In this document: piece after piece, positions 49,429-62,016 of the stretch
How the letters are laid out: every line of letters starts with the position of its first letter
Numbering within the stretch: the stretch's first letter is position 1
DNA from: Aquirufa ecclesiirivi
GTDB lineage: Bacteria > Bacteroidota > Bacteroidia > Cytophagales > Spirosomataceae
Direction: 5' to 3'
Length of the DNA stretch: 64,000 nt
Assembly: GCF_011250515.1 (NCBI RefSeq)
Contig: NZ_JAANOP010000010.1
Span: forward strand, 45,366 to 109,365
The notes under the pieces: generated by a model
Databases searched by the model: none
Told to the model about the DNA's origin: nothing
Seen by the model: only the letters and a program-made list of their open reading frames with translations
Position numbers and translations under genes: made by a program

Positions 49429-50478
49429 ATGCAATCGAACTTATTTCACACGGCCATACTTTCTTACGGAATGTCTGGCCGTGTTTTTCATGCCCCTTTC
49501 TTAGCAACTCATCCTGGATTTCATTTAGTAGGTTGCTGGGAAAGATCCCAAAAAAACATTCAATCCAGATATCCAGAGGTGATCAGTTATAATTCTTTGG
49601 AAGAAGTTTTAACCAATGATCAAATCCAATTGGTGGTAGTCAATACCCCCATTGCTACACACTTTGACTATACGTTAAAGTGTTTAGAAGCTGGAAAGCA
49701 TGTTTTAGTAGAAAAATGCTTTACCCGCACGGCTGAAGAAGCCATTCTATTAAAGGCAGCCATGGAGAAAGCTGGTAAGCAATTATTTGTCTTTCAAAAC
49801 CGTCGCTGGGATTCTGATTTTTTGACCGTAAAAAAAGTAAAAGAATCCGGTGTTTTAGGCGAATTAGTGGAAGCTGAATTCCATTATGACCGCTTCGACG
49901 GAAATCTGTCTTACAAGGCACACAAAGAAATTGCAGGTGTAGGTGTTGGAGTCGTTACCGACCTAGGTCCGCACATCATAGACCAAGCCATTTCCTTATT
50001 TGGTATGCCAGAGCGTGTGTTTGCGGATTTACGTAAAACGAGAAAAAACACGCAAGTGGATGATTACTTTGAAATTCTTTTATACTACCCCAATTTACGT
50101 GTACGTTTGAAGGCCGGTTATTTTGTCAAATTGCCTGTTCCTTCTTTTCAATTGCACGGTAAACAAGGTAGTTTTTTAAAGAATCGTTCTGATCGACAAG
50201 AGGCTGATTTGCAGTTAGCTATACTTCCCAATTCTCCCAATTGGGGACAAGATTCCGAACAGGATTTTGGTCAAATTTGGATAGACGGAGAAGATAAACC
50301 ACGTGCTATTCCATCAGAAACGGGAAATTACATGGCTTTCTTTGAAAATGTATATCAAACCCTTTTAGGGAACGAAAAGCCTGCCGTATCCGTTGAAGAT
50401 GGAATTCGTAGTATGCGCATCGTAGATGCGGCTTATGAAAGTAATCGTCAACAAGCTATTATTTCGCTTTCCTACTAA
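49429..50478 (+). CDS. Gfo/Idh/MocA-family oxidoreductase
   Basis: A 349-residue cytoplasmic oxidoreductase. The nucleotide motif is SYGMSGRVFHAPFLATHPGF, the family's YG..G..FHAP form. The usual EKP motif reads EKCFTRTAEEA, so Pro is replaced by Cys. The substrate domain contains VVTDLGPHIIDQAISLFG, with the conserved His. It oxidises or reduces a sugar-like hydroxyl with NAD(P). The next gene starts two bases after its stop, so it is cotranscribed with the CRP/FNR regulator, although the link to sulfur metabolism is not clear. Confidence 0.85.
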   Translation: MQSNLFHTAILSYGMSGRVFHAPFLATHPGFHLVGCWERSQKNIQSRYPEVISYNSLEEVLTNDQIQLVVVNTPIATHFDYTLKCLEAGKHVLVEKCFTRTAEEAILLKAAMEKAGKQLFVFQNRRWDSDFLTVKKVKESGVLGELVEAEFHYDRFDGNLSYKAHKEIAGVGVGVVTDLGPHIIDQAISLFGMPERVFADLRKTRKNTQVDDYFEILLYYPNLRVRLKAGYFVKLPVPSFQLHGKQGSFLKNRSDRQEADLQLAILPNSPNWGQDSEQDFGQIWIDGEDKPRAIPSETGNYMAFFENVYQTLLGNEKPAVSVEDGIRSMRIVDAAYESNRQQAIISLSY

Positions 50479-50479
50479 T

Positions 50480-51121
50480 ATGGCAACAACTGAAACTACC
50501 CAGAAATTATTTCAACAATTTGAACCTGAGTTACTAAAAAAAATACAACAGGTGGGATTGGTTCGTAAGTTTAAAACGGATGAATATTTAATGCAAACAG
50601 GCCAACAAATCCGTTCGGCTGTATTGGTATTGGACGGCGTGGTCAAAGTATTTAGAGAAGACGATGAAGGCAATGAAGTCTTTATGTACAACTTGCATCC
50701 CGGAGAAGCTTGTGCTATTTCCATGACTTGTGCTGCTCGCCAGCTTTCTAGTCAAATCATGGCAAAAGCCTTAGTAGATACGGAAGTATTGGTTATTCCT
50801 GTAGAATTAATGGATGAATGGGCGCTTAAATACCGTTCTTGGTACCAATTTGTCTTAGAAACCTATCGTGCTCGTTTTGAAGAGCTATTAGATACACTGG
50901 ATCATATTGCCTTCCGAAATCTAGATGAGCGCCTACTTTGGTATTTAAAACAACATCAAAAGAGCCTGAAAAGTAATTTCATCAAAACATCATTCACGGA
51001 CATCGCTTTAGAGCTCAATTCCTCTCGTGAAGTCATTTCCCGCCTGATGAAAAAACTTGCCGAAAAAGGCCATGTCAAATTGCATAAGAACGAAGTGGAG
51101 ATTTTACATTTGAAAATGTAG
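50480..51121 (+). CDS. CRP/FNR-family regulator, candidate master regulator of the sulfur genes
   Basis: 213 residues from ATG 50480, one base after the upstream stop; a longer frame from 50426 overlaps the oxidoreductase. An N-terminal cyclic-nucleotide-type jelly roll (residues 10-125) has the LDGVVKVFRE and LHPGEACAIS turns. It lacks the Arg/Ser phosphate-cassette of cAMP-binding CRP and has no iron-sulfur Cys cluster as in FNR, but it does have Cys78 and Cys84 in GEACAISMTCAA. The C-terminal helix-turn-helix (170-193) has recognition helix SSREVISRLMKKL with Arg183, Glu184 and Arg188, the pattern by which CRP reads GTGA. Four operators of that type lie in the next 10 kb. The stop codon lies within a GTAGAAT heptamer. 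Confidence 0.88.
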   Translation: MATTETTQKLFQQFEPELLKKIQQVGLVRKFKTDEYLMQTGQQIRSAVLVLDGVVKVFREDDEGNEVFMYNLHPGEACAISMTCAARQLSSQIMAKALVDTEVLVIPVELMDEWALKYRSWYQFVLETYRARFEELLDTLDHIAFRNLDERLLWYLKQHQKSLKSNFIKTSFTDIALELNSSREVISRLMKKLAEKGHVKLHKNEVEILHLKM

Positions 51122-51277: not shown

Positions 51278-51321
51278 GTGATGCTTATCACGCCAGAAGC
51301 TATAGATGTGCCAGAAATTTG
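51278..51321 (+). promoter_or_regulatory. CRP-type operator and -7 box of the porin gene (site 1)
   Basis: GTGAT-GCTT-ATCAC (51278-51291) is a perfect 5-4-5 inverted repeat within TGTGA-N6-TCACG. The -7 element GAAATTTG (51314-51321) ends 30 bases after it. This places the operator near -41, the class II activator position. Confidence 0.72.
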
Positions 51322-51337
51322 TGTTATAAATAACACA
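51320..51337. promoter_or_regulatory. second palindrome at the porin start
   Basis: TGTGTTATAAATAACACA is a perfect 18-base palindrome ending two bases before the ATG at 51340 and overlapping the end of the -7 box. It would lie around +1 to +12, so it could be a repressor operator or a hairpin over the translation start. It is not present at the other three promoters. Confidence 0.5.
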
Positions 51338-51339
51338 CG

Positions 51340-52734
51340 ATGCCTGCAAAAAACATATATTCCCTAATTCTGGTCTGTTCATTATTTGTTTTGCCTATTG
51401 CTACAGCAAATTCCACCGCTTCCAATAAACCAGATTCTAGTTCGGTTTGGCATGTATTGACCAAAGGGAAAATTCATCCCAATTTGCGCTATTTTTACAT
51501 GAATACAGATAATGTAGGCACCTCATACGATGCTTACGCTCATGGATTAGGCGTGGGCATTTCTTATGAATCCGCTCCTTGGAAGCATATTAGCTTGGGC
51601 ATCAGTGGCCAATGGATGAACATGGTTAATACCAGTTCTTTTGTACCTGACCCTAAATTCCCGATCCTCAACCGATATGAAATAGGCTTAGTTGACCTGA
51701 TCCATCCGCAATCAAATGCTCTTTTGAGCCGATTAGAAAAATTATATGTTGCCTATTCCATTCAAAAATCCAGTATCAAAATGGGCCGTCAAGTGATCAA
51801 TACCCCATTCATCAATCCACAAGATGGCAGAATGAGGCCTACAGCTGTGTCTGGAATTTGGGTAGATTGGAATAACATTTCTAACACAAAAGTGGAAGTA
51901 GGATATATTCATGCCATTTCTCCTAGAAGCACCACACAATGGTTTGGTATCGGAGAATCCATGGGGATTTATCCACAGGGTCTGAATCCAGACGGGTCTA
52001 AATCAAATTACTTGGGTAACATTAAGTCACAAGGCATCGGAATGATAGGGATAACCTTAAAGCAATGGAAACCTTGGAGTATTCAAGTTTGGAATATGTA
52101 TGTGGACCAGGTCATGTACACAGGCTTGCTACAAGCAGATGCACAATGGCCCACAAATCAAAAAAGTCAGTGGGTTGCAGGAGTTCAATACATCGAGCAA
52201 CATGCCATTCAAGACGGCGGTAATCCAGATCCATCCAAAACCTACATGAATCCTGGAGCCATGTCAAGAACATTCGGTGCGAAATTTGGCTGGGAAAATA
52301 AACAATGGAAAAGCTCCATCAATTACAATCAAATAACAGGAGAAGGACGCTATTTAATGCCCAGAGAATGGGGAAAAGATCCTTTCTTCACCTTCATGCC
52401 TAGAGAAAGAAATGAAGGTTTTGGCGATGTGGAAGCATTGGTAGCGAAAGTTGCTTATCAATGGAAAAAAACTCCATTAAAAGCTCAATTGGCTCAAGGA
52501 TATTTTCGTCTACCCCCGGTGAATGAGGTTGCTTTAAATAAATACGCTATGCCTTCGTATTCACAAAGTAATATAGAGGTAACTTTTGAGCCAAAAGGAA
52601 AATGGAAGGGATCGAGCTTTTCTCTGATTTATGTGCATAAAAGCGGATTGGAAAACGATATTCTGGCCGATAAATTCATCATCAATAAAGTGAATATGAG
52701 CCAAGTAAACTTTATTGTAAATTATAATTTATAA
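51340..52734 (+). CDS. OprD-like outer-membrane porin
   Basis: A 464-residue protein with a signal peptide (MPAKNIYSLILVCSLFVLPIATA) and a barrel rich in alternating aromatic strands that ends in VNFIVNYNL with a short beta strand. INTPFINPQDGRMRPTAVSGIW is the OprD-family segment after strand 3, and the long loops fit a substrate-selective 18-stranded porin. It should admit a small anion or nutrient across the outer membrane. Its promoter shares the operator of the sulfide/thiosulfate genes, so a sulfur anion is a reasonable candidate. It is the first gene after the regulator. Confidence 0.8.
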   Translation: MPAKNIYSLILVCSLFVLPIATANSTASNKPDSSSVWHVLTKGKIHPNLRYFYMNTDNVGTSYDAYAHGLGVGISYESAPWKHISLGISGQWMNMVNTSSFVPDPKFPILNRYEIGLVDLIHPQSNALLSRLEKLYVAYSIQKSSIKMGRQVINTPFINPQDGRMRPTAVSGIWVDWNNISNTKVEVGYIHAISPRSTTQWFGIGESMGIYPQGLNPDGSKSNYLGNIKSQGIGMIGITLKQWKPWSIQVWNMYVDQVMYTGLLQADAQWPTNQKSQWVAGVQYIEQHAIQDGGNPDPSKTYMNPGAMSRTFGAKFGWENKQWKSSINYNQITGEGRYLMPREWGKDPFFTFMPRERNEGFGDVEALVAKVAYQWKKTPLKAQLAQGYFRLPPVNEVALNKYAMPSYSQSNIEVTFEPKGKWKGSSFSLIYVHKSGLENDILADKFIINKVNMSQVNFIVNYNL

Positions 52735-52756
52735 ATGATGAATTATAAATTGTGAA

Positions 52757-52780
52757 TGCCTGAATGACGTTGACCGTTTT
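52757..52780 (+). mobile_element. insertion-sequence end remnant (c)
   Basis: TGCCTGAATGACGTTGACCG followed by TTTT resembles the end at 63742. It matches remnant (d) at 58233 better, continuing with (T/A)ATC(A/T)ATTTT(T/G)GAATT. It lies just after AT-rich heptamers and before a decayed ATTCTAC-type run (52793-52826). Confidence 0.6.
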
Positions 52781-52882
52781 ATCAATTTTTGAATTCTACA
52801 TGCTATATTTTACATGCTACATTGAGAGTTTAGCTGAAGGGTCATGTTTCATAATAAGAAATGATTAAGCATAGAACTCTAA

Positions 52883-53089
52883 GGCATTTCTTTTTTTTCA
52901 TAAAAAAAGAAACAAAAAAAACAGAAGAAAGGCGGTTAATCCTAAGACGAATTCTGCTACGCAGAACCGATTTTCTCTCCGCTTACGGCTTTAATATTTG
53001 ACGCTTTAGCACATGGCCTATGCGCTGGGTCAAATATCCGCCTGCCGCTTCGCTCAAGCTACGTTCCAATCTTTCGTTGGGATTAACCG
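52883..53089 (+). repeat. palindromic element A (left copy)
   Basis: Two parts. 52883-52932: GGCATTTC, a T run, CAT, an A run and GAAAC, a hairpin of about 10 bp. 52933-53089: a 157-base core with terminal inverted repeats CGGTTAATCC and GGATTAACCG, inside which are the hairpins TTCTGC-TAC-GCAGAA and ATATTTGAC...GTCAAATAT. A nearly identical inverted copy is at 58407-58612. No ORF. The element could be a miniature transposon or a structured RNA. Confidence 0.8.
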
Positions 53090-53126
53090 TTCAATGTAAA
53101 ATGTAGAATTTTTGATAGAACATACC

Positions 53127-53256
53127 GTCGTACAGCCCTGCGAAATGTGATGAACGCAGCGGTAGACGAGGTTTTGACCTCAGCATAGGTGATGTGCGTC
53201 GGCGTCAAAAATATAGGCTATAGCGAAGTGAATCACGGTTCGCAGGGCTGTACGAC
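53127..53256 (-). repeat. palindromic element B (left copy)
   Basis: 130 bases bounded by perfect 18-base inverted repeats GTCGTACAGCCCTGCGAA and TTCGCAGGGCTGTACGAC. On the minus strand the inner 95 bases align with element A (GAACCG, TTTGACGC, GCACAT, CCTATGC, GGTCAAA and CCGCTGCGTTCA in the same order), so A and B are diverged members of one family. An inverted copy is at 58754-58899. Confidence 0.8.
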
Positions 53257-53385
53257 AAAAAAAGGAGGTTTTGGTGCAGATTTTATAATATTTAAAATGA
53301 GTTTTTAATAAGCTCAATTGTCAACCTAATTAAGGACAAGACATTACCCGACTAATAAAAAACCCTAAAACTATTTTTTCCTCTT

Positions 53386-53429
53386 GTGATAAAAATCACG
53401 AATTAGACCAAAATATTGCTTGACATTTG
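53386..53429 (+). promoter_or_regulatory. CRP-type operator and -7 box of the TauE operon (site 2)
   Basis: GTGAT-AAAA-ATCAC (53386-53399), then CACGAATTA as at site 3. The -7 element GACATTTG (53422-53429; seven of eight) ends exactly 30 bases after the operator. The gene start is 26 bases further on. Confidence 0.75.
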
Positions 53430-53454
53430 TATCAACAAAAAAGAAAAACACGAC

Positions 53455-54276
53455 ATGGAAATTATCGGATACTTTGCCTCTTTACTGATTGGAATCTCGC
53501 TGGGACTCATTGGTGGTGGTGGATCCATTTTAACAGTACCTGTGTTGGTTTATTTATTTGGCATCAATCCTATTTTAGCCACCGCTTATTCCCTATTCAT
53601 TGTGGGTGCAAGTAGCTTGGTTGGAGCGTTTCCAAAATACCAACAAGGTTTAGTCAATATGAAAACAGCCATCATTTTTGGCATACCTTCTATCATCTCT
53701 GTCTATGCTACCCGTAAGTTCATTGTGCCATTAATTCCATCAGAAATATTCCAATTAGGGGATTTAGTCATTACCAAGTCAATCTTAATGATGGTGTTAT
53801 TTGCCATCCTAATGGTAGCCGCCTCCATCTCTATGATTCGCGGAACCTGTGAGAATTGTGGGAAAGAAGGAACAGGGGAACTAGAAGTGGTGCCACAGAC
53901 GTTTAACTATCCTATCATTTTACTAGAAGGTTCTGTGGTTGGTTTATTAACTGGATTGGTCGGTGCAGGAGGAGGATTTTTAATTATTCCAGCTTTGGTC
54001 GTACTTTCTAAATTACCTATGAAACAGGCCGTTGGGACTTCCCTACTCATCATAGCCATGAAATCGTTAATAGGTTTCACGGGAGATTTAGGGCATCAAA
54101 GCATCGACTGGACCTTGTTAGTAACCATTACAGCCTTAGCGATTGCAGGAATATTTGTAGGAGATAAATTCAGTAAAAACGTCGACAGCGACAAATTAAA
54201 AAAAGGTTTTGGTTGGTTTGTACTCATCATGGGCCTTTATATCTTAATTCAACAATTAGCATTCCCTTTAAAATAA
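53455..54276 (+). CDS. TauE/SafE-family sulfite exporter
   Basis: 273 residues from ATG 53455 (MEIIGYFASLLIGISLGLIGG); a TTG at 53416 lies within the promoter. About eight transmembrane helices in two repeats, each with the family motif: LIGISLGLIGGGGSILTVPVLVYL and VVGLLTGLVGAGGGFLIIPALVVL. A loop with CENCGK is at about residue 134. It exports sulfite, thiosulfate or organosulfonate. It is the first gene of a seven-gene operon; next is persulfide dioxygenase, whose product is sulfite. Confidence 0.9.
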   Translation: MEIIGYFASLLIGISLGLIGGGGSILTVPVLVYLFGINPILATAYSLFIVGASSLVGAFPKYQQGLVNMKTAIIFGIPSIISVYATRKFIVPLIPSEIFQLGDLVITKSILMMVLFAILMVAASISMIRGTCENCGKEGTGELEVVPQTFNYPIILLEGSVVGLLTGLVGAGGGFLIIPALVVLSKLPMKQAVGTSLLIIAMKSLIGFTGDLGHQSIDWTLLVTITALAIAGIFVGDKFSKNVDSDKLKKGFGWFVLIMGLYILIQQLAFPLK

Positions 54277-54324
54277 GCATTAACTACCTTAAAACAACAC
54301 ATTAACAACATACTATCTAAGAAA

Positions 54325-55743
54325 ATGAAAGTAGAACAAATTTATACCGGATGTTTAGCACAAGGTGCCTATTACATTGAAAACAATGGCGAAGCAGCCA
54401 TCATCGATCCCTTACGTGAAGTTGAACCTTATATCCAAAAGGCTGAACGCAATGGAGCCAAAATCAAGTACGTGTTTGAAACACACTTTCATGCCGACTT
54501 CGTTTCTGGACACATTGATTTATCCGCTAAAACGGGTGCACCAATTGTTTATGGACCCAATGCAGCTTGTGCCTTTGATTGTATTTCAGCTACAGACGGA
54601 CAAGAATTCCCATTAGGAAATGCCACGATTCGCGTGATTCATACGCCAGGTCACACCATGGAAAGTACTTGTTTCTTGTTGATTGATGAGCATGGAAAAG
54701 AAACTAGTTTATTCTCTGGAGACACCTTATTCATCGGAGATGTGGGTCGTCCAGATTTAGCTCAAAAAGTAAAGGCTGATTTAACAGAAGATATTTTGGC
54801 AGGTCACTTATTTGATTCATTACGAAACAAAATCATGCCATTAGCAGATGATATCATCGTATATCCAGCACATGGCGCTGGTTCAGCTTGTGGAAAAAAC
54901 ATGAGCAAGGAAACCTCGGATACCTTGGGCAACCAGAAGAAAACCAATTATGCCTTGAATCTGAATTTGACTAAAGAAGAATTCAAAAAAGAAGTATTAA
55001 CGGGTTTGGTTGCTCCTCCATCCTACTTCCCATTAAACGTATTGATGAACATTCAAGGATACGATAGCATTGATAAAGTATTGGAAAGAGGCCAGCATGC
55101 CCTATCTCCAGAGGCCTTTGAAGTAGCTGCTAATGAAACAGGTGCTTTGATTTTAGATACTCGTGACCCTCAGACATTTACGAAAGGATTTGTCCCTAAT
55201 TCCATCAATATTGGAATCGATGGTTCTTTCGCCCCATGGGTAGGTGCTATGATTCCAGACATCAAACAAGAAATCTTGTTGATCACGGATGAAGGACGTG
55301 AAGAGGAAGTGATTACACGTTTAGCCCGTGTGGGTTACGATTTTACTATCGGATTTTTAAAAGGAGGATTTGACGCGTGGAAAGCAGCAGGAAAAGAAGT
55401 GGATAGCATTGAATCCATCTCCGCCGATGAAGTTGCGCAGCGAATTGAAGCAGGAGAAGGTGAAATCTTGGACGTGCGTAAGCATTCTGAATATTTAAGT
55501 GAGCATGTAAAAGAAGCAGAAAATGCGCCTTTGGACTTCATCAACGACAGTATGTTGAAGATCGACAAGAACAAAACCTATTTCGTACACTGTGCCGGAG
55601 GTTACCGTTCCATGATTTTCAACTCAACGCTGAGAGCCCGCGGATACCATAACTTAATTGATGTCAACGGAGGTTTCAAAGCCATCAAAGAATCAGAGAA
55701 ATTTCACATCACGGACTATGTTTGTCCATCAACTTTATTGTAA
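54325..55743 (+). CDS. persulfide dioxygenase-rhodanese fusion (ETHE1-like)
   Basis: A 472-residue cytoplasmic protein. Residues 1-225 are a metallo-beta-lactamase domain with THFHADFVSGH, TPGHTMEST and FSGDTLFIGDVGRPDL; the three iron ligands of ETHE1 (first His of HxHxD, the TPGH His and the GDT Asp) are all present. Two rhodanese domains follow: 240-355, with no active Cys (ITDEGREEE), and 365-470, active Cys in VHCAGGYRS. It oxidises glutathione-type or other low-molecular persulfide to sulfite; the last domain can move sulfane sulfur, giving thiosulfate. It sits between the exporter and a small rhodanese. Confidence 0.9.
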   Translation: MKVEQIYTGCLAQGAYYIENNGEAAIIDPLREVEPYIQKAERNGAKIKYVFETHFHADFVSGHIDLSAKTGAPIVYGPNAACAFDCISATDGQEFPLGNATIRVIHTPGHTMESTCFLLIDEHGKETSLFSGDTLFIGDVGRPDLAQKVKADLTEDILAGHLFDSLRNKIMPLADDIIVYPAHGAGSACGKNMSKETSDTLGNQKKTNYALNLNLTKEEFKKEVLTGLVAPPSYFPLNVLMNIQGYDSIDKVLERGQHALSPEAFEVAANETGALILDTRDPQTFTKGFVPNSINIGIDGSFAPWVGAMIPDIKQEILLITDEGREEEVITRLARVGYDFTIGFLKGGFDAWKAAGKEVDSIESISADEVAQRIEAGEGEILDVRKHSEYLSEHVKEAENAPLDFINDSMLKIDKNKTYFVHCAGGYRSMIFNSTLRARGYHNLIDVNGGFKAIKESEKFHITDYVCPSTLL

Positions 55744-55745
55744 TC

Positions 55746-56027
55746 ATGAATTTACAAGCATTAATTGATAACCCGAAAACCAGTATTGTGGATGTGCGTG
55801 AAGTCGGAGAGTTCATGCAAGGCCACTACGATGGAGCCATTAACATCCCCTTGGGAACCATTCCCAACCAATTGGATAAATTCAAAGCCATGGACGGCCC
55901 CATCATTGTGTATTGTCGCAGTGGTAACCGCTCTGGACTAGCCTTAACCATGTTAAAGCAAATGGGCTACCAAGAAGTTTACAACGGTGGTGCTTTGCAG
56001 GATATGTTGGTCTATGCAAACAACTAA
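55746..56027 (+). CDS. single-domain rhodanese
   Basis: 93 residues from ATG 55746, two bases after the dioxygenase stop. The active-site loop is YCRSGNRSG with Cys57; the CxxGxRS form suits sulfur transfer to sulfite or thiols. No signal peptide. It probably works with the persulfide dioxygenase to form or use thiosulfate. Confidence 0.9.
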   Translation: MNLQALIDNPKTSIVDVREVGEFMQGHYDGAINIPLGTIPNQLDKFKAMDGPIIVYCRSGNRSGLALTMLKQMGYQEVYNGGALQDMLVYANN

Positions 56028-56031
56028 TCCA

Positions 56032-56283
56032 ATGTGGAACACACTAAGACAACCGTGGGATCTAATGCGCATAGCTCGCCTAATAATGGGCAGCTATGCG
56101 TTATATGAGTCCATTAAAACGCAAGAAGTTTTTTTAGGACTTTTAGCTGGAATATTATTGATCCAAGCTTTGTTTAATATAGGCTGTGGAGCACAGGGAT
56201 GCGGAATTCCAACAAGTACGAAGAAATCATCCTCTAAAAACATAGAAGAAACGGAATATGAAGAAGTTCATTCAAAACCATAA
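56032..56283 (+). CDS. small Cys-containing membrane protein
   Basis: 83 residues from ATG 56032, five bases after the rhodanese stop; other in-frame starts overlap that gene. Two hydrophobic helices (about 10-26 and 28-47) end in IGCGAQGCGIP, followed by a hydrophilic tail. The pairing of a rhodanese with a short membrane partner recalls the YgaP-type arrangement, and the two Cys could take persulfide. The function is inferred from context. Confidence 0.7.
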   Translation: MWNTLRQPWDLMRIARLIMGSYALYESIKTQEVFLGLLAGILLIQALFNIGCGAQGCGIPTSTKKSSSKNIEETEYEEVHSKP

Positions 56284-56467
56284 ATTAGCACTAATTGGAA
56301 CCTTTTTAGGTGGAATCGCAGGCTATTTCTATTGGCAACAAATTGGATGTAGTACGGGCACTTGTCCACTCACTTCCAAGCCTCTGAATAGCACCTTGTA
56401 TTTTGCCTTTCTGGGTTATATTTTTAGTGGGTTTTTCAATAATAAAAAAACAGTCAATAGTGATTAG
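56258..56467 (+). CDS. small membrane protein (DUF6132-like)
   Basis: 69 residues starting 26 bases inside the previous gene (ATG 56258), which indicates translational coupling. Two hydrophobic helices flank the Cys-containing loop GCSTGTCPLTSKP, typical of the DUF6132 group found near sulfur genes in Bacteroidota. Function unknown; a role in binding or relaying a sulfur species in the membrane is inference. Confidence 0.75.
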   Translation: MKKFIQNHKLALIGTFLGGIAGYFYWQQIGCSTGTCPLTSKPLNSTLYFAFLGYIFSGFFNNKKTVNSD

Positions 56468-56592
56468 GGGTTATATATTAGTTATTAGGGATTTATATAA
56501 ATTAAAGTCAAAGCTCCACTATTCTACTATTTCAAAAACTTTCCTAATAACTAACACCTAATAACTAAAAAAAAGCTTACCATAATAAAACG

Positions 56593-57156
56593 ATGATAGA
56601 AACAATTTCACAACCTTGGCCATGGTACGTGGCGGGGGCCATAATCGGTTTAATAGTACCTGCTTTATTGTTATTGGGCAATAAGCATTTTGGCATATCG
56701 TCTAATTTAAGACATATTTGCGCGGCATGTTTTCCAAGTAATATCCCCTTTTTCAAGTATGACTGGAAGAAAGAATCTTGGAATTTATTCTTTGTAGGTG
56801 GAATTTTATTGGGTGGTTTTTTGTCTGCTCAATACCTAGGTTCCAATGAACCTATCCAAATTCATCCCGATTTAGCTCAGGAATTAGCGGCCTATGGCAT
56901 CACTGATTTCTCTGGCTTGGTTCCCGTTCAACTTTTCTCTTTTGACGCCTTGTTTTCAGCCAAAGGATTGATCATGATGATTGGCGGAGGATTCTTGGTA
57001 GGATTCGGCACGCGATATGCTGGTGGATGTACTTCAGGACATGCCATCATGGGTTTGAGCAATTTGCAATGGCCTTCTTTGGTAGCTACTATCTGTTTTA
57101 TGGTCGGAGGATTTATCATGGCCAATTTCATTTTACCTTACATCCTTAGCCTTTAA
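56593..57156 (+). CDS. YeeE/YedE-family thiosulfate carrier, first half
   Basis: 187 residues, about five helices. The family motif is GGCTSGHAIMG (GxxCxSGH) near residue 142; this Cys lies on the transport path in TsuA (YeeE). A second candidate Cys pair is HICAACFPS. Length is half that of TsuA, and the other half is the next gene, so the two chains together probably form one thiosulfate importer. A 125-base gap with AT-rich repeats precedes it. Confidence 0.88.
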   Translation: MIETISQPWPWYVAGAIIGLIVPALLLLGNKHFGISSNLRHICAACFPSNIPFFKYDWKKESWNLFFVGGILLGGFLSAQYLGSNEPIQIHPDLAQELAAYGITDFSGLVPVQLFSFDALFSAKGLIMMIGGGFLVGFGTRYAGGCTSGHAIMGLSNLQWPSLVATICFMVGGFIMANFILPYILSL

Positions 57157-57161
57157 ACAAC

Positions 57162-57671
57162 ATGGAAAATAAGACAATCGTACATAGTAATCCTGCTGAT
57201 TATCAAGCAAGATCATTGGATACCATGTGTATCAATGAATCGGAATTAAAGCACCCATGGTGGTATAACTTCAAGTACTTGGCTGTAGGTTTGGTTTTTG
57301 GCGTGGTATTCGTCAAAGCAGAAATCATTTCTTGGTTCAGAATACAGGAAATGTTCCGTTTACAAAGTTTTCACATGTATGGCGTGATAGGCACAGCCGT
57401 AGTCGTGGGAGCTATTTCGGTATTTTTGATCAAAAAATGGAAAGTCAAAACCATCCACGGGGAAGAGATCACGTTTGCGGATAAGAAATTCAACAAAGGT
57501 CAGATTTACGGAGGCTTAATGTTCGGCTTTGGCTGGGCCATCACGGGAGCCTGCCCAGGACCACTCTTTGCTCAATTAGGCACGGGAGTATTATCCATTT
57601 CTGTAGTGATCTTAAGCGCCATTGCTGGCACTTGGACCTACGGGTACTTACGCGAAAAATTACCGCATTAA
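57162..57671 (+). CDS. YeeE/YedE-family thiosulfate carrier, second half (DUF6691)
   Basis: 169 residues with four helices. The key motif is GWAITGACPGPLFAQLG near residue 125, equal to the second conserved Cys motif of TsuA. It begins five bases after the first half. It is the last gene of the operon; a strong terminator follows. Confidence 0.88.
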   Translation: MENKTIVHSNPADYQARSLDTMCINESELKHPWWYNFKYLAVGLVFGVVFVKAEIISWFRIQEMFRLQSFHMYGVIGTAVVVGAISVFLIKKWKVKTIHGEEITFADKKFNKGQIYGGLMFGFGWAITGACPGPLFAQLGTGVLSISVVILSAIAGTWTYGYLREKLPH

Positions 57672-57699
57672 TAACCAATATATATAAGATGATACGAAG

Positions 57700-57727
57700 A
57701 CCATCACCGGGAGGTGGTGGTTTTTTG
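57700..57727 (+). terminator. terminator of the sulfur operon
   Basis: ACCATCACC, loop GGGA and GGTGGTGGT (one G-U pair) form a 9-bp GC-rich stem, followed by six T. It lies 29 bases after the last stop. Confidence 0.88.
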
Positions 57728-58048
57728 TATGTTGAAACTATAGAATCAAACTACGGCAGATAAAAAAATGATCTATTATATGAGATAGTTGATTTTGTTA
57801 GATAATTCTATTGAAATATTAAACTTTGTTAGGAATGCTCAACGAACTGTGTCAATGTTTAATAATCTATCTGCGAAGTTTTCTGCACCAAAAAATTTAA
57901 CAATTTTCAAAATTGTCCAGTTTTTTTACTAATAAACTGGACATTTGGAAAACAACATATACTTGTAATGGCCTCAATTATAGTATTTTACATCGATGAT
58001 ATAAAAATTACCTGTTAAGATTTTGCAACCATGGTGATAAAATTTTAG
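57728..58048. other. non-coding stretch after the sulfur operon
   Basis: AT-rich sequence without a credible ORF. The only structures seen are the hairpin TGTCCAGTTT...AAACTGGACA (57925-57951), a perfect 10-bp stem around TTTTACTAAT, and a short AATTTTCAAAATT palindrome just before it. It probably separates the operon from inserted debris. Confidence 0.6.
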
Positions 58049-58129
58049 AGTTTGCCTGAATCTCAGAACATCGAATACAAACAATCTTGGCACTCAGACC
58101 ATAGCCATGTTACTTATATGTAAAAAAGC
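58049..58129 (+). pseudogene. fragment of a Schlafen/AlbA-domain gene
   Basis: The frame gives SLPESQNIEYKQSW followed by unrelated residues and a stop. LPESQxIEYKQSW is the conserved first strand of the AlbA_2 (Schlafen-like) nucleic-acid-binding ATPase family. An in-frame TAG lies directly upstream, and everything after the first 14 codons is lost, so this is a relic. Confidence 0.55.
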
Positions 58130-58146
58130 ATATATTTCCATGAAAA

Positions 58147-58221
58147 ATGGAAGCAGTAATAACAGCTGATATAATCAATTCAAGAGGTGTACCTTCAGGT
58201 ACATGGTTGCCTACATTGTAG
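58147..58221 (+). pseudogene. fragment of a SatD-like gene
   Basis: ATG 58147 opens a 24-codon frame reading AVITADIINSRGV and WLPTL, which resembles the N-terminus of SatD-family proteins (AVITGDIxNSR). It stops at a TAG formed where a GTAGAAT heptamer begins. A truncated relic that lies next to the AlbA fragment and remnant (d). Confidence 0.5.
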
Positions 58222-58232
58222 AATGTTGTATA

Positions 58233-58255
58233 TGCCTGAATGATGTTGAACGTTT
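58233..58255 (+). mobile_element. insertion-sequence end remnant (d)
   Basis: TGCCTGAATGATGTTGAACG plus TTT matches remnant (c) at 52757 in the same direction. The pair are direct repeats 5.5 kb apart around the sulfur operon. Heptamers of the ATTCTAC type follow (58270-58318). Confidence 0.6.
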
Positions 58256-58406
58256 AATCTATTTTGGAATCGACATTCTACATTTTTCATTCTACATTCT
58301 ACATTTTTCATTCTTCATTCTCCCCTTCTAATACCTAAACCCAAATCACTAAAATTGCCGGTATTCGCGATCACACAAATTCTACATTTTTCATTCTACA
58401 TTAAAA

Positions 58407-58612
58407 GGTTAATCCCAACGAAAGATTGGAACGTAGCTTGAGCGAAGCGGAAGGCGGATATTTGACTCTACGCACAGGCCTTGTGCGATGGCGTCAAATA
58501 TTAAAGCCGTAAGCGGAGAGACAATCGGTTCTGCGCAGCAGAATTCGTCTTAGGATTAACCGTATTACTTCAGTTTTTTTTGTTTCTTTTTTTATAAAAA
58601 AAAAGAAATGCC
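58407..58612 (-). repeat. palindromic element A (right copy, inverted)
   Basis: Reverse complement of 52883-53089 with few differences: core 58407-58562 bounded by GGTTAATCC and GGATTAACCG, then the oligo-T/oligo-A hairpin ending GAAATGCC at 58612. Overlapping weak ORFs are not called. Confidence 0.8.
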
Positions 58613-58753
58613 AAAGAAAGTTAAGCTCCAGAAAATTGATGAATTCAAAAAAAATTATCATACTTTTCATTTAAAATCAAGCACTTTTTCGTTTCATAAA
58701 TTCAAATGGATTTTCTTTTTTGAAAAAAAAGAAACAAAAAAACTTCTTTTTTT

Positions 58754-58899
58754 GTCGTTCAGCCAAGGCGAATTCCGCTTTGCGGAACCGTGATTCACTT
58801 CGCTATCGCCTATATTTTTGACGCCGACGCTCATCGCCTATGCTGAGGTCAAAACCTCGTCTACCGCTGCGTTCATCCCCTTTCGCAGGCCTGCACGAC
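58754..58899 (+). repeat. palindromic element B (right copy, inverted)
   Basis: Most of this is the reverse complement of 53127-53256. It starts GTCGTTCAGCC and ends GCCTGCACGAC. It retains an extra hairpin AATTCCGC-TTT-GCGGAA, which element A has as AATTCTGC-TAC-GCAGAA, so this copy links the two subfamilies. An oligo-T/oligo-A hairpin (58703-58740) precedes it, as with element A. Confidence 0.75.
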
Positions 58900-58959
58900 G
58901 TAATTCTCGTTCCCATAAATTCTACATTTTTCATTCTACATGCTACATTCTCCCCCCTA

Positions 58960-59003
58960 GTGACAAATATCACGAATTACTAGGCTTGAATCTCATAATA
59001 TTA
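58960..59003 (+). promoter_or_regulatory. CRP-type operator and -7 position of the SQR gene (site 3)
   Basis: GTGAC-AAAT-ATCAC (58960-58973), then GAATTA as at site 2. The 8 bases ending 30 after the operator are TAATATTA (58996-59003), a weaker -7 box, consistent with need for an activator. The ACATTCTCCCCCC before it resembles the sequence before site 1. Confidence 0.65.
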
Positions 59004-59025
59004 CATTCAGTTAAACGAAAACCAC

Positions 59026-60219
59026 ATGAGAATTCATCATCAAATCATCATCATTGGTGGAGGGAATGCCGGAATATCAGTAGCTAGCCAGCTATTACGA
59101 CAAGATTCTTCCTTGGATATTGGCCTAATTGATGCTGCAGACAAGCATTATTACCAGCCCGCATGGACTTTAGTAGGTGGTGGGGTTTTTGATATACAAA
59201 AAACCGTTCGAGATGAGGCATCTGTCATGCCCAATAAGGTGAGTTGGATCAAAGCCATGGTTACGGAGATTCAAGCAGAAAAAAATAAATTAACATTGAG
59301 TAATGGGGAGTCTATTTATTACGACTATCTCGTAGTAAGTCCAGGAATTCAATTGAATTGGTCTGCCATCAAAGGTCTTCAAGAAAGCTTAGGCAAAAAC
59401 GGAGTTTGCTCCAATTACAGTTTTGAAACAGCACCCTATACTTGGGAATGCGTACAAGCGCTCCCCAAAGGAGGAAAAGCTATTTTTACCAATCCTCCTA
59501 CTCCGGTTAAATGTGGAGGTGCTCCTCAAAAGGCCATGTACCTCTCCGCTGATTATTTCAAAAAACATCACAAAGCTGCCGATGTTCAATTTTGGAGTGG
59601 AGGAACTCGGGTATTTGGTGTGGAGAAATATGAAAAAACATTAAAACAAGTTATACATCGCTATGGCATCAAGACTCAATTTTTTGTCCAATTGGTAGAA
59701 ATTGATGGTCCTGCTAAAAAAGCTAAATTCGTGGGAATAGGTGAGGCAAATAAAGACCAAGAATATTGGGTAGATTATGACATGATCCACGTTACTCCTC
59801 CCCAAACAGCCCCTGACTTTATTCAAAAAAGTAGTTTAGCCAATGCCACAGGTTGGGTAGAAGTGGATAAACATAGCTTACAACATGTGCGTTTCCCTAA
59901 TGTGTTTTCATGTGGCGACGTGGCTGGTTTACCCGTCTCTAGAACGGGGGCGGCTATACGTAAGCAAGCGCCTGTCTTGGTGGCCAACCTATTGTCGCTG
60001 TTGAAAGGTGAAGCGATGCAGGCATCCTACAACGGCTATTCATCTTGCCCCATTGTGACAGGATATGGTAAATTAATTTTAGCGGAGTTTGATTATGATA
60101 ACGTACCCACAGAAACTTTTCCTTTTGACCAATCCCAAGAAAGGTGGTCGATGTACCAATTAAAAACCAAAATATTGCCTTGGTTGTATTGGAATGAGAT
60201 TTTACCCGGTAAAATGTAA
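59026..60219 (+). CDS. sqr: sulfide:quinone oxidoreductase, type II
   Basis: A 397-residue flavoprotein. The FAD-binding motif is IIIIGGGNAGISVASQLL, and the second is FSCGDVAGLPVSRTGAAIRKQ. The redox Cys are Cys163 in NPPTPVKCGGAPQKAMYLS and Cys341 in YSSCPIVTGYGKLILAEFDY. These and the C-terminus FPFDQSQERWSMY match the mitochondrial-type (type II) SQR very closely. It oxidises sulfide at the cytoplasmic membrane, passes electrons to quinone and hands the sulfane sulfur to a small thiol, making the persulfide substrate for the dioxygenase at 54325. The promoter carries site 3. Confidence 0.95.
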   Translation: MRIHHQIIIIGGGNAGISVASQLLRQDSSLDIGLIDAADKHYYQPAWTLVGGGVFDIQKTVRDEASVMPNKVSWIKAMVTEIQAEKNKLTLSNGESIYYDYLVVSPGIQLNWSAIKGLQESLGKNGVCSNYSFETAPYTWECVQALPKGGKAIFTNPPTPVKCGGAPQKAMYLSADYFKKHHKAADVQFWSGGTRVFGVEKYEKTLKQVIHRYGIKTQFFVQLVEIDGPAKKAKFVGIGEANKDQEYWVDYDMIHVTPPQTAPDFIQKSSLANATGWVEVDKHSLQHVRFPNVFSCGDVAGLPVSRTGAAIRKQAPVLVANLLSLLKGEAMQASYNGYSSCPIVTGYGKLILAEFDYDNVPTETFPFDQSQERWSMYQLKTKILPWLYWNEILPGKM

Positions 60220-60250
60220 AAAAGCTGGAAGCATGTTGTTGCCTCCAGCT
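60217..60250 (-). terminator. terminator between sqr and the DsrE-like gene
   Basis: AGCTGGAAGC and GCCTCCAGCT pair over 10 positions (one mismatch) around an eight-base loop. On the minus strand a T run follows (60223-60218), so it ends the DsrE-like transcript; on the plus strand it may also stop the sqr transcript. Confidence 0.7.
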
Positions 60251-60269
60251 CTACTAAAAATGTATGGGA

Positions 60270-60680
60270 CTAGGGCTTTAAATAAGACCAACCCGCTTCT
60301 TGCTTTAAAATAACTTCTGCAACTCCAGAAGGAACAAAGCCCGATTGCGGTAATAAAGTAGCTTTATCAATTTTATTCATACGAATGGTATTTTCACAAG
60401 CAACAAAAGAAACCCCTTTAGCCGCCAATTCAGCGATTTTAGCCTTTTGAGTTGTTTTTGAATCAATTAATAAACCTATACCTGATCCATGCGCTACCAC
60501 TTCAATGGAAGTATTTGGCCCTAGGGCAGATTGAAGATTTCCGATATTACGTACCACACCATGCCATGCCGTGGTATCAGAAGTATTCACCTGAATCACA
60601 ATTTTATGTGCAGGCGACTGCGCTAAGGCATGAAAGCCCAATAGTAGCGCAAAGACAGAAGTAACAAGTATTTTTTTCAT
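60270..60680 (-). CDS. exported DsrE-family protein
   Basis: 136 residues from ATG 60680 (MKKILVTSVFALLLGFHALAQ, a signal peptide); the open frame to 60716 overlaps the divergent methyltransferase. The DsrE/F-like fold is suggested by KIVIQVNTSDTTAWHGVVRN, IEVVAHGSGIGLL and GVSFVACENTIRMNKI, with Cys near residue 97 at the position used for sulfur relay in family members. It could bind sulfane sulfur in the periplasm. It faces sqr tail to tail. Confidence 0.82.
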   Translation of the reverse strand: MKKILVTSVFALLLGFHALAQSPAHKIVIQVNTSDTTAWHGVVRNIGNLQSALGPNTSIEVVAHGSGIGLLIDSKTTQKAKIAELAAKGVSFVACENTIRMNKIDKATLLPQSGFVPSGVAEVILKQEAGWSYLKP

Positions 60681-60714
60681 TTTCAAAATTTTTCCCAAAG
60701 TACGCAATCTATAC

Positions 60715-61317
60715 ATGAAAGCAAATTGGAATTCTCGATATGATTCAAAAGAATATCAATACGGCATAGAGCCTAATGATTTCTTAAAAAAGACCATAAG
60801 CAAACTAGTGGTTGGTAGACTCTTAGTTCCTGCAGCTGGTGAAGGCAGAGATGCTGTTTTTGCGGCACAATTAGGTTGGGAAGTACATGCATTTGACAGT
60901 AGTGACACCGCCCAAGCAAAAGCGAACAAACTCGCTGGAGAAAGAACCGTCAATTTGCATTACGAATGCATCGATGCTGCCAGTGTGCGCTATCCTTTAG
61001 AATCCTTTGATGCCATCGCTTTGATCTTTTTCCACCAAATACCCGAGGAAAGGCGTAAATTTCATCAACAATGCATCAAATGGTTAAAACCGGGAGGTAA
61101 AATTATCTTGGAAGGATTTCATAAAGACCAGTTGGTTCGAGATTCAGGCGGACCTAAGGATTTAGATATGCTGTTTAACAAAGATGAACTCAGCCAAGAT
61201 TTTAAAGGTTTACAGATCGACTATATAAAAGAAAAGGAATGTGTCTTAAATGAAGGACCATTACATCAAGGAAAGGCTTTTGTGATAGATTTAGTGGCAA
61301 CAAAATCCATCAGTTAA
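60715..61317 (+). CDS. SAM-dependent methyltransferase (TPMT/TehB-like)
   Basis: A 200-residue class I methyltransferase. The SAM site is LLVPAAGEGRDAVFAAQLGWEVHAFDSS, with DAIALIFFHQIPEERRKFHQ and LKPGGKIILEGF after it. The N-terminus WNSRYDSKEYQYGIEPNDFL is typical of the thiopurine/tellurite methyltransferase group. Some relatives methylate sulfide or small thiols, which would fit the location between sqr and a rhodanese, but the substrate is inference. Its start is 35 bases from the divergent DsrE-like start. Confidence 0.85.
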   Translation: MKANWNSRYDSKEYQYGIEPNDFLKKTISKLVVGRLLVPAAGEGRDAVFAAQLGWEVHAFDSSDTAQAKANKLAGERTVNLHYECIDAASVRYPLESFDAIALIFFHQIPEERRKFHQQCIKWLKPGGKIILEGFHKDQLVRDSGGPKDLDMLFNKDELSQDFKGLQIDYIKEKECVLNEGPLHQGKAFVIDLVATKSIS

Positions 61318-61328
61318 TCTGAACTCAG

Positions 61329-61372
61329 GAGACAATTGTCACGCCTTCAGAGATAAATCCATACTACCTTTG
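61329..61372 (+). promoter_or_regulatory. CRP-type operator and -7 box of the rhodanese-thioredoxin unit (site 4)
   Basis: GAGAC-AATT-GTCAC (61329-61342) is a one-mismatch version of the operator, followed by GCC as at site 1. The -7 element TACCTTTG (61365-61372) is a perfect TAnnTTTG and again ends exactly 30 bases after the operator. The start codon is 20 bases on. Confidence 0.68.
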
Positions 61373-61391: not shown

Positions 61392-61694
61392 ATGTTTGAA
61401 TTTATTAAAAATTTATTGGGCATTGGCCCTAGCGTAGACGTGAAAGCACTTATACAAGCTGGAGCAAAAGTTATTGATGTTCGTACACCCTCAGAATACA
61501 AACAAGGGCATGTCAAAGGTTCAATCAATCTACCTTTGCAGACTTTGTCCAGTAATGTAAGCAAATTGAAAAAAGAGGATGTAATCATCACGTGCTGTGC
61601 CTCCGGTATGCGTAGCGGTGCTGCCAAAAGATTGTTAAAATCGCATGGATTTCAACAAGTGCACAATGGTGGAACTTGGATGTCCTTACAATAG
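61392..61694 (+). CDS. single-domain rhodanese
   Basis: A 100-residue rhodanese with an amphipathic N-terminal helix (MFEFIKNLLG) and active loop TCCASGMRSGA, where Cys69 is the likely sulfur carrier with Cys68 next to it. The vicinal Cys pair is less usual. It is probably cytoplasmic. It is first in a unit with thioredoxin 25 bases downstream, which could reduce its persulfide. Confidence 0.9.
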   Translation: MFEFIKNLLGIGPSVDVKALIQAGAKVIDVRTPSEYKQGHVKGSINLPLQTLSSNVSKLKKEDVIITCCASGMRSGAAKRLLKSHGFQQVHNGGTWMSLQ

Positions 61695-61719: not shown

Positions 61720-62016
61720 ATGAGCAATTTTTCAGAATTATTGAAATCAGAGCAGCCTGTTCTCGTCGACTTTTCGGCAGAGTGGTGCGGCCCTTGTAAG
61801 CAATTGAAGCCTATTTTGGAACAGGTCAAAGCCAAAATTGGAGATAGCGCAAAAATCATCAAGGTTGATGTGGATAAAAACCGTAAAACGGCTGAAAAAT
61901 ACCAGATTCGCTCCGTACCTACCATGATTTTATTCAAAAATGGTAAATCCGTCTGGCGACAATCAGGCGTCATTCCCGCCCATACCTTGGTAGGAATAAT
62001 TCAGCAGTATAGCTAA
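61720..62016 (+). CDS. thioredoxin
   Basis: A 98-residue cytoplasmic thioredoxin with active site EWCGPCK (Cys23, Cys26), the cis-Pro loop SVPTMILF and LFKNGK. It reduces disulfides and protein persulfides. It follows the rhodanese in the operator-controlled unit; the long heptamer array follows. Confidence 0.93.
   Translation: MSNFSELLKSEQPVLVDFSAEWCGPCKQLKPILEQVKAKIGDSAKIIKVDVDKNRKTAEKYQIRSVPTMILFKNGKSVWRQSGVIPAHTLVGIIQQYS

Follow-up and report, generated by a model that had tools for sequence, protein, structure and literature searches.

Genes and operators of the region

We analysed a stretch of 64,000 nucleotides (nt) from Aquirufa ecclesiirivi (contig NZ_JAANOP010000010.1), hereafter called the window, in which four promoters share a CRP-like inverted repeat, the operator, in front of predicted sulfide and thiosulfate genes. 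A gene for a Crp/Fnr-family regulator (50480-51121) lies immediately 5' of the first of these units, the porin unit, and begins right behind an oxidoreductase gene (49429-50478). A sequence-only reading of this DNA had proposed that the four sites define a regulon of four units; it omitted the likely regulator as well as a fifth site described below. The genes and promoter elements are as follows.

50480..51121, + strand: Crp/Fnr-family regulator, 213 amino acids (PF00027, 40.6 bits, cut-off 27.5; PF13545, 29.8 bits, cut-off 27)
51278..51291, + strand: operator 1, GTGATGCTTATCAC, porin promoter; unchanged in 10/10 genus loci having the porin
51314..51321, + strand: -7 box GAAATTTG, ending 30 bases past operator 1
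51340..52734, + strand: OprD-like porin (PF03573, 3.4e-11)
53386..53399, + strand: operator 2, GTGATAAAAATCAC, promoter of the tauE-yeeE operon
53422..53429, + strand: -7 box GACATTTG, ending 30 bases past operator 2
53455..54276, + strand: TauE/SafE-family permease, ATG start (PF01925, 1.6e-42)
54325..55743, + strand: metallo-beta-lactamase and rhodanese protein (PF00753; PF00581 in two stretches)
55746..56027, + strand: rhodanese (PF00581, 4.8e-17)
56593..57156, + strand: YeeE-type sulfur transporter, half 1 (PF04143, 5.1e-18)
57162..57671, + strand: YeeE-type sulfur transporter, half 2 (PF04143, PF20398)
58960..58973, + strand: operator 3, GTGACAAATATCAC, sqr promoter; unchanged in 13/13 genus loci having sqr
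58996..59003, + strand: -7 box TAATATTA, sqr promoter, off consensus
59026..60219, + strand: sulfide:quinone oxidoreductase-like protein, sqr (PF07992; best NCBIfam model NF049943)
61329..61342, + strand: operator 4, GAGACAATTGTCAC, rhodanese-thioredoxin promoter
61365..61372, + strand: -7 box TACCTTTG, ending 30 bases past operator 4
61392..61694, + strand: rhodanese (PF00581, 1.5e-17)
61720..62016, + strand: thioredoxin (PF00085, 9.5e-29)

The four operators were confirmed to the single base, including the G directly 3' of each, and in 4/4 promoters the 8-base box ends exactly 30 bases past the operator, just as the sequence-only reading had put it. The TAnnTTTG consensus that it gave for the boxes is carried by three of the four as far as TTTG is concerned, and is departed from by the sqr box. 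Promoters 1-4 have leaders of 18, 25, 22 and 19 nt between the box and the ATG. Bacteroidota promoters have a -33/-7 layout, and in all four promoters the site of the expected -33 TTG is occupied by the right arm of the operator; TTG was absent at 19-23 bases in the four promoters checked. The operator centre lies 37 bases from the box end, which would put it about 41 bases upstream of the expected start when the box is taken as the -7 element. Because the right arm of the operator occupies the place of the -33 element, class II activation is the mode that we infer. An operator centred about -41.5, as read from sequence, with the upstream core element replaced is the class II arrangement, so the position suggested earlier holds as a layout.

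An 18-base perfect palindrome, TGTGTTATAAATAACACA (51320-51337), extends from the last bases of the porin -7 box into the leader; a further control site or a hairpin in the transcript would be possible roles. The product of 54325..55743 is probably persulfide-dioxygenase-like, judging by its domain architecture, and the sqr product scored 213.7 bits against NF049943 (type III sulfide:quinone oxidoreductase), under the cut-off of 525. An alternative TTG start of the TauE permease, at 53416, falls upstream of the -7 box. By eye, 52921-53250 and 58386-58890 seem to be mutual inverted copies flanking the tauE-yeeE operon, and short ATTCTACATT-type arrays adjoin them.

Occurrence in the genome and a fifth target

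The sequence GTGAYN4RTCAC has 10 exact matches in the 3,118,479-base genome. Three of them lie inside 7.7 kb of the window (binomial P about 2e-6), and of the remaining seven five are within reading frames, one is the fifth target described below and one has no clear setting. Finding TTTG at one preset offset in 3/4 sites has a P of about 2e-6, or about 8e-5 if any of 41 offsets is allowed. When operator and box were searched together at <=1 mismatch, the genome gave five matches, of which four are followed by sulfur genes and the other lies within a frame; the sqr promoter was reached only at two mismatches. A genome list of weaker targets (<=2 mismatches) was dropped, with 28 matches against 18 for the reversed control. 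The other 23 of those 28 include 14 inside frames, the sqr site, and operator 2 read backwards.

The fifth site, C11:417113, lies outside the window, directly 5' of rhodanese and OsmC genes, where it overlaps the stop codon of the preceding gene and is followed by TTTCTTTG ending 30 bases downstream. It is present in all 3 other genus genomes with a close rhodanese orthologue (77-79% identity; one match contains a stop), with the spacer length of 22 unchanged and the spacer sequence changed. No operator was found at 6 other loci, whose rhodaneses are less similar (35-51%). The four units proposed earlier stand, and their number rises to at least five in the genome; the regulon is real and wider than first described. 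We do not claim autoregulation, the window regulator lying directly behind the oxidoreductase gene with no exact operator of its own.

Conservation in Aquirufa

The related genomes were scanned with the pattern GWGAYN4RTCAC-N22-NANNTTTG, using the reversed pattern as control. In 38 Aquirufa genomes there were 95 matches against 1 for the control. The next gene was tauE for 37 matches, a rhodanese for 19, the porin for 10, tsdA for 9 and sqr for 2, that is 77 of the 95, so the motif is not equally common before unrelated genes. The remaining matches precede genes for heavy-metal-domain proteins (6), methyltransferases (6) and peroxiredoxins (3), or were not classed (3). The name tsdA was given because the product matches structures of thiosulfate dehydrogenase (1.5e-43); in several species the gene is divergent from sqr, one operator being common to both.

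Conservation of each promoter was counted in 20 fetched genus loci. Operator 2 is unchanged, with a spacer of 22 and a TTTG box, in 17/17 loci having tauE. Operator 4 was found at <=1 mismatch in 15/20 loci and at <=2 in 20/20; in every case the spacer is 22 and the box has TTTG. Departures from TTTG at the box place were seen in 2/10 porin boxes and 11/13 sqr boxes. Among the 17 tauE promoters spacer identity is 51% against 97% for the arms; the spacing is conserved, the spacer sequence is not.

Two further kinds of gene follow the operator in some genus genomes. In three loci (L120, L135, L312) the gene behind it encodes a methyltransferase; in L135 and L312 another methyltransferase gene comes next, resembling the window gene 60715-61317, and S-methylation of sulfide or thiols is a possible function. 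In six genomes (L116, L132, L138, L142 and L306 among the loci) it stands before a small protein with a heavy-metal-associated domain, a hint that the handling of sulfide and that of metals are connected.

The regulator and its relatives across Bacteroidota

Relatives were sought with a profile made from 18 orthologues, of which the best 80 matches were listed. Orthologues occur in the genus, the order and the phylum, and the matches listed include Flavobacterium, Pedobacter, Chitinophaga, Dyadobacter and others. A sulfur-gene homologue lies in the fetched stretch at 142/169 loci outside the genus, a count that becomes 130/169 without two multi-domain queries and 98/169 by tauE or yeeE alone.

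The recognition helix of the window regulator is SSREVISRL. Seven matches to the cyclic nucleoside monophosphate (cNMP) domain were found in the genome, and only the 50480-51121 protein has Arg-Glu-x-x-Ser-Arg. Because it is the sole carrier of this triad, and because of the covariation described below, the neighbouring regulator is the likely reader of the sites. Arg183 and Arg188 are invariant in 189/189 typed regulators, the typing itself having required Arg-like residues there.

In 79 loci of the Glu type (1.0 Mb) the GTGA operators had 72 matches (41 loci) at spacer 22 and 12 at spacer 23, and none of the remaining spacers between 17 and 27 had more than 3. Control patterns at spacer 22 in the same loci gave 0 matches for GTAA, 0 for GTCA and 1 for GTTA. 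Out of 178 distinct operator matches, 126 lie before a homologue of a window sulfur gene and 5 before a crp homologue; 38 were not matched by the window queries and 9 had no reading frame. Many of those 38 look like TsdA, OsmC, YgaP-like or TolC genes by letters or Pfam. At seven loci of other families the operator precedes genes for a SulP-like transporter, TolC-like efflux proteins or DUF983 proteins (the names come from Pfam for L219 and L226, and from resemblance for L236, L148, L235, L237 and L253), which suggests additional functions in exporting sulfur or in defence.

Covariation of residue 184 with operator base 3

Regulators with Glu184 go with the operator GTGAY-N4-RTCAC, and those with Val184 with GTAAY-N4-RTTAC (GTAAC-N4-GTTAC or near), at identical spacing. 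Of 189 typed loci, 142 are Glu and 47 Val. The Glu loci have 146 GTGA matches in 77 loci, with 3 for GTAA and 1 for GTTA; the Val loci have 17 GTAA matches in 16 loci and none for GTGA.

We also compared whole genomes, typed by their fetched regulator copies. The 28 Glu-only genomes have 25 GTGA and 5 GTAA matches, the 35 Val-only genomes 12 and 57, and the 2 genomes with both types 0 and 2. The association has an odds ratio of 24, with P 6e-10 when hits are counted and P 1e-4 when genomes are, in statistics that ignore relatedness. In seven genomes of one distant family (G244, G300, G330, G205, G133, G319, G088) near-identical GTGA-pattern matches occur, and these look like one conserved coding stretch, not operators.

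A regulator tree was built without the helix columns. It leaves aside 16 of the 20 genus loci, which are nearly identical, as well as L145, every locus that has no operator or operators of mixed type, and one locus interrupted by an in-frame stop. Residue 184 and the operator base agree at 75/76 tree loci, and residue 184 changed five times on the best tree.

In the alignment, position 184 corresponds to Glu181 in E. coli CRP and to Val in NtcA. CRP mutants at Glu181 reportedly shifted specificity at the base pair of operator base 3. According to the available part of PMC11253593, this G:C pair is contacted in CRP by Arg185 and by Glu181, the latter at the cytosine, and the base-contact residues are listed likewise in the portion of PMC12531629 at hand. 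The Val-form operator matches the NtcA site, which an excerpt of PMC3898017 gives as GTAN8TAC, -41.5 from starts.

Cysteines, fold and signal

Cys78 and Cys84 are the sole cysteines of the window regulator, and Cys78 is present in 190/190 regulators; a conserved cysteine is what a persulfide or sulfane-sulfur sensor would have. The predicted fold has a pLDDT (predicted local distance difference test) of 90.5, and the nearest structures by Foldseek include 3dv8, CAP and NtcA. In this model Cys78 stands immediately before the helix 79-86, in a region that aligns with what we take to be the phosphate-binding loop of CRP. Glu72 and Arg82 of CRP contact cAMP; no conserved counterpart of either was found in the regulator alignment. 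Against the CRP (cAMP receptor) model the protein scored 34.9 bits, the equivalog cut-off being 266. The FNR model gave 18.7 bits against a cut-off of 228, and FNR has four iron-sulfur (Fe-S) cysteines where this protein has two. The cysteine pair as Fe-S ligand was rejected, there being two cysteines only. A direct response to sulfane sulfur is what we predict, as the simplest reading given the targets.

Proposed mechanism and alternative explanations

The strongest parts of the case are the operator, the spacing, the target set and the covariation of regulator and operator. Binding by the neighbouring regulator is the step that we infer from them. We consider it likely that the operators are sites of the 50480-51121 protein, which would activate predicted sulfide and thiosulfate genes from about -41, with Cys78 as the predicted sensor of reactive sulfur. 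Arg183, Glu184 and Arg188 would read GTGA in the manner of Arg180, Glu181 and Arg185 of E. coli CRP. Seated about 41 bases before the transcription start, the regulator would switch on genes whose predicted roles are the oxidation, transport and detoxification of sulfide and thiosulfate. Near the former cyclic-nucleotide pocket, Cys78, usually together with Cys84, would be modified by sulfane sulfur (persulfide or polysulfide), and this modification would turn the activator on. A wider proposal, on which we are evenly divided, is that the regulator represents a phylum-wide Bacteroidota class of Crp/Fnr activators directly sensing sulfane sulfur via an invariant cysteine in the former cyclic-nucleotide pocket, naturally switching between the CRP (Glu, GTGA) and NtcA (Val, GTAA) codes while keeping regulon and geometry, and that it would be the first dedicated Crp/Fnr sulfur sensor.

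Several observations weigh against the proposed mechanism. At the promoters, the sqr box TAATATTA has no TTTG and is identical in 10/13 genus loci having sqr, and the window genome's own tsdA, located elsewhere, has no operator. Operators without any match to the regulator occur in two genus genomes, which are 89% and 73% complete, the GTGA pattern is occasionally present in genomes without a close regulator, and 27/169 regulator loci have no sulfur gene nearby. In the covariation, a strict match of the expected form is missing in 16/28 Glu-only and 14/35 Val-only genomes, and matches of the other form occur in 10 Val-only and 4 Glu-only genomes. Only two of the Glu/Val switches are independent and on supported branches; both agree (sign test P 0.5). 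The sole exception on the tree is L106, of the Glu type, whose only site is a GTAAC one (GTAACAATTGTTAC, L106:9361, by the 22-base rule) 5' of its own regulator; a second, Val-type regulator may control it. As to the signal, Cys84 is present in 159/190 regulators and missing in 31, and what is sensed cannot be read from gene neighbourhood alone.

The same regulator might use these operators in answer to another signal: oxygen, nitric oxide, copper or the oxidation of thiols in general, with sulfur genes as one output. Cysteine pairs sense oxidants too, and genus operators do precede heavy-metal-domain (6), peroxiredoxin (3) and methyltransferase (6) genes; still, 77/95 genus matches have sulfide or thiosulfate genes behind them, two cysteines leave no FNR-type Fe-S cluster, and we hold another signal to be unlikely, if worth keeping in mind. 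Repression from these sites is quite improbable in our judgement. NtcA does repress some genes, from sites placed elsewhere as far as the accessible text of PMC3898017 goes, whereas a fixed position about -41, a -33 region under the operator and the absence of TTG at 19-23 bases form the layout of a class II activator.

The operators might also serve another, global Crp/Fnr protein for carbon or oxygen control, the neighbouring regulator being incidental. Their core is that of E. coli CRP, bindable by any CRP-like reader, and the genome has its seven cNMP-domain matches to choose from. However, the other six lack the Arg-Glu-x-x-Ser-Arg triad, operator base 3 tracks residue 184 of the neighbouring regulator, and the targets are chiefly sulfur genes rather than a global set, all of which makes such a reader very improbable. 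Palindromes with few fixed bases are common and the region contains repeats, so chance, or promoter copies spread by duplication, had to be considered as well. Here the spacer sequences diverge, with 51% identity even between promoters of tauE orthologues, while the spacing stays, the reversed pattern matches once against 95 times, and the operator is conserved before different genes in many families; we find such an origin scarcely credible. Activation by the neighbouring regulator in predicted response to reactive sulfur is the reading that we prefer.

Comparison with known systems

The host is a freshwater bacterium of the genus Aquirufa. The sulfide-handling enzymes of Bacteroidota are recognisable, and in our limited literature search no regulator of them was described. 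A regulator, an operator rule and a target list that are valid across families would make sulfur genes findable by their promoters. The covariation of Glu/Val with G/A would be a natural counterpart of the specificity change reported for the CRP mutants, and helps to predict Crp/Fnr operators from protein sequence.

Sulfide-oxidation genes are controlled upon reactive sulfur by SqrR/BigR of the ArsR family, CstR of the CsoR family and the NtrC-like FisR. Unlike these, the Aquirufa regulator has Crp/Fnr domains, and it had no match to the ArsR, CsoR or sigma-54 activator families at an E-value of 0.001, in line with the earlier statement that the known sulfide sensors belong to other families. 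A 2022 review of reactive sulfur in bacteria (PMC9774590) describes, in the part available, the control of sulfide oxidation by FisR upon reactive sulfur and names FisR, OxyR, LasR and OhrR; in that part of its text 'Crp' occurs in the references only and 'Fnr' nowhere. The Crp-like A1S_1182 of Acinetobacter baumannii was persulfidated in sulfide-treated cells (PMC7315123). In the excerpt of that paper it is not presented as a sulfur regulator, and it differs from the Aquirufa protein in being close to global Crp and Vfr, with its cysteine opposite the ligand pocket. Among the matches listed in the limited literature search there was no regulator of the Crp/Fnr superfamily with sulfide or sulfane sulfur as its dedicated field.

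By sequence (4.8e-37) as well as by Foldseek, the best match in PDB is 3dv8, a Crp/Fnr protein of Eubacterium rectale deposited as putative, with 24% identity and cysteines that align at both positions. Cyanobacterial NtcA resembles the Val form of the regulator in having Val at the Glu position and the site GTAN8TAC at -41.5, and differs in its response to 2-oxoglutarate and its nitrogen genes, as given in the available sections of PMC3898017. E. coli CRP at class II promoters shares with the Aquirufa system the GTGA-N6-TCAC core, the Arg-Glu-x-x-x-Arg contacts, a centre about -41 and the same fold (Foldseek template modelling score about 0.7-0.8), whereas the Aquirufa protein has two cysteines, one of them invariant, sulfur targets and a Bacteroidota -7 box.

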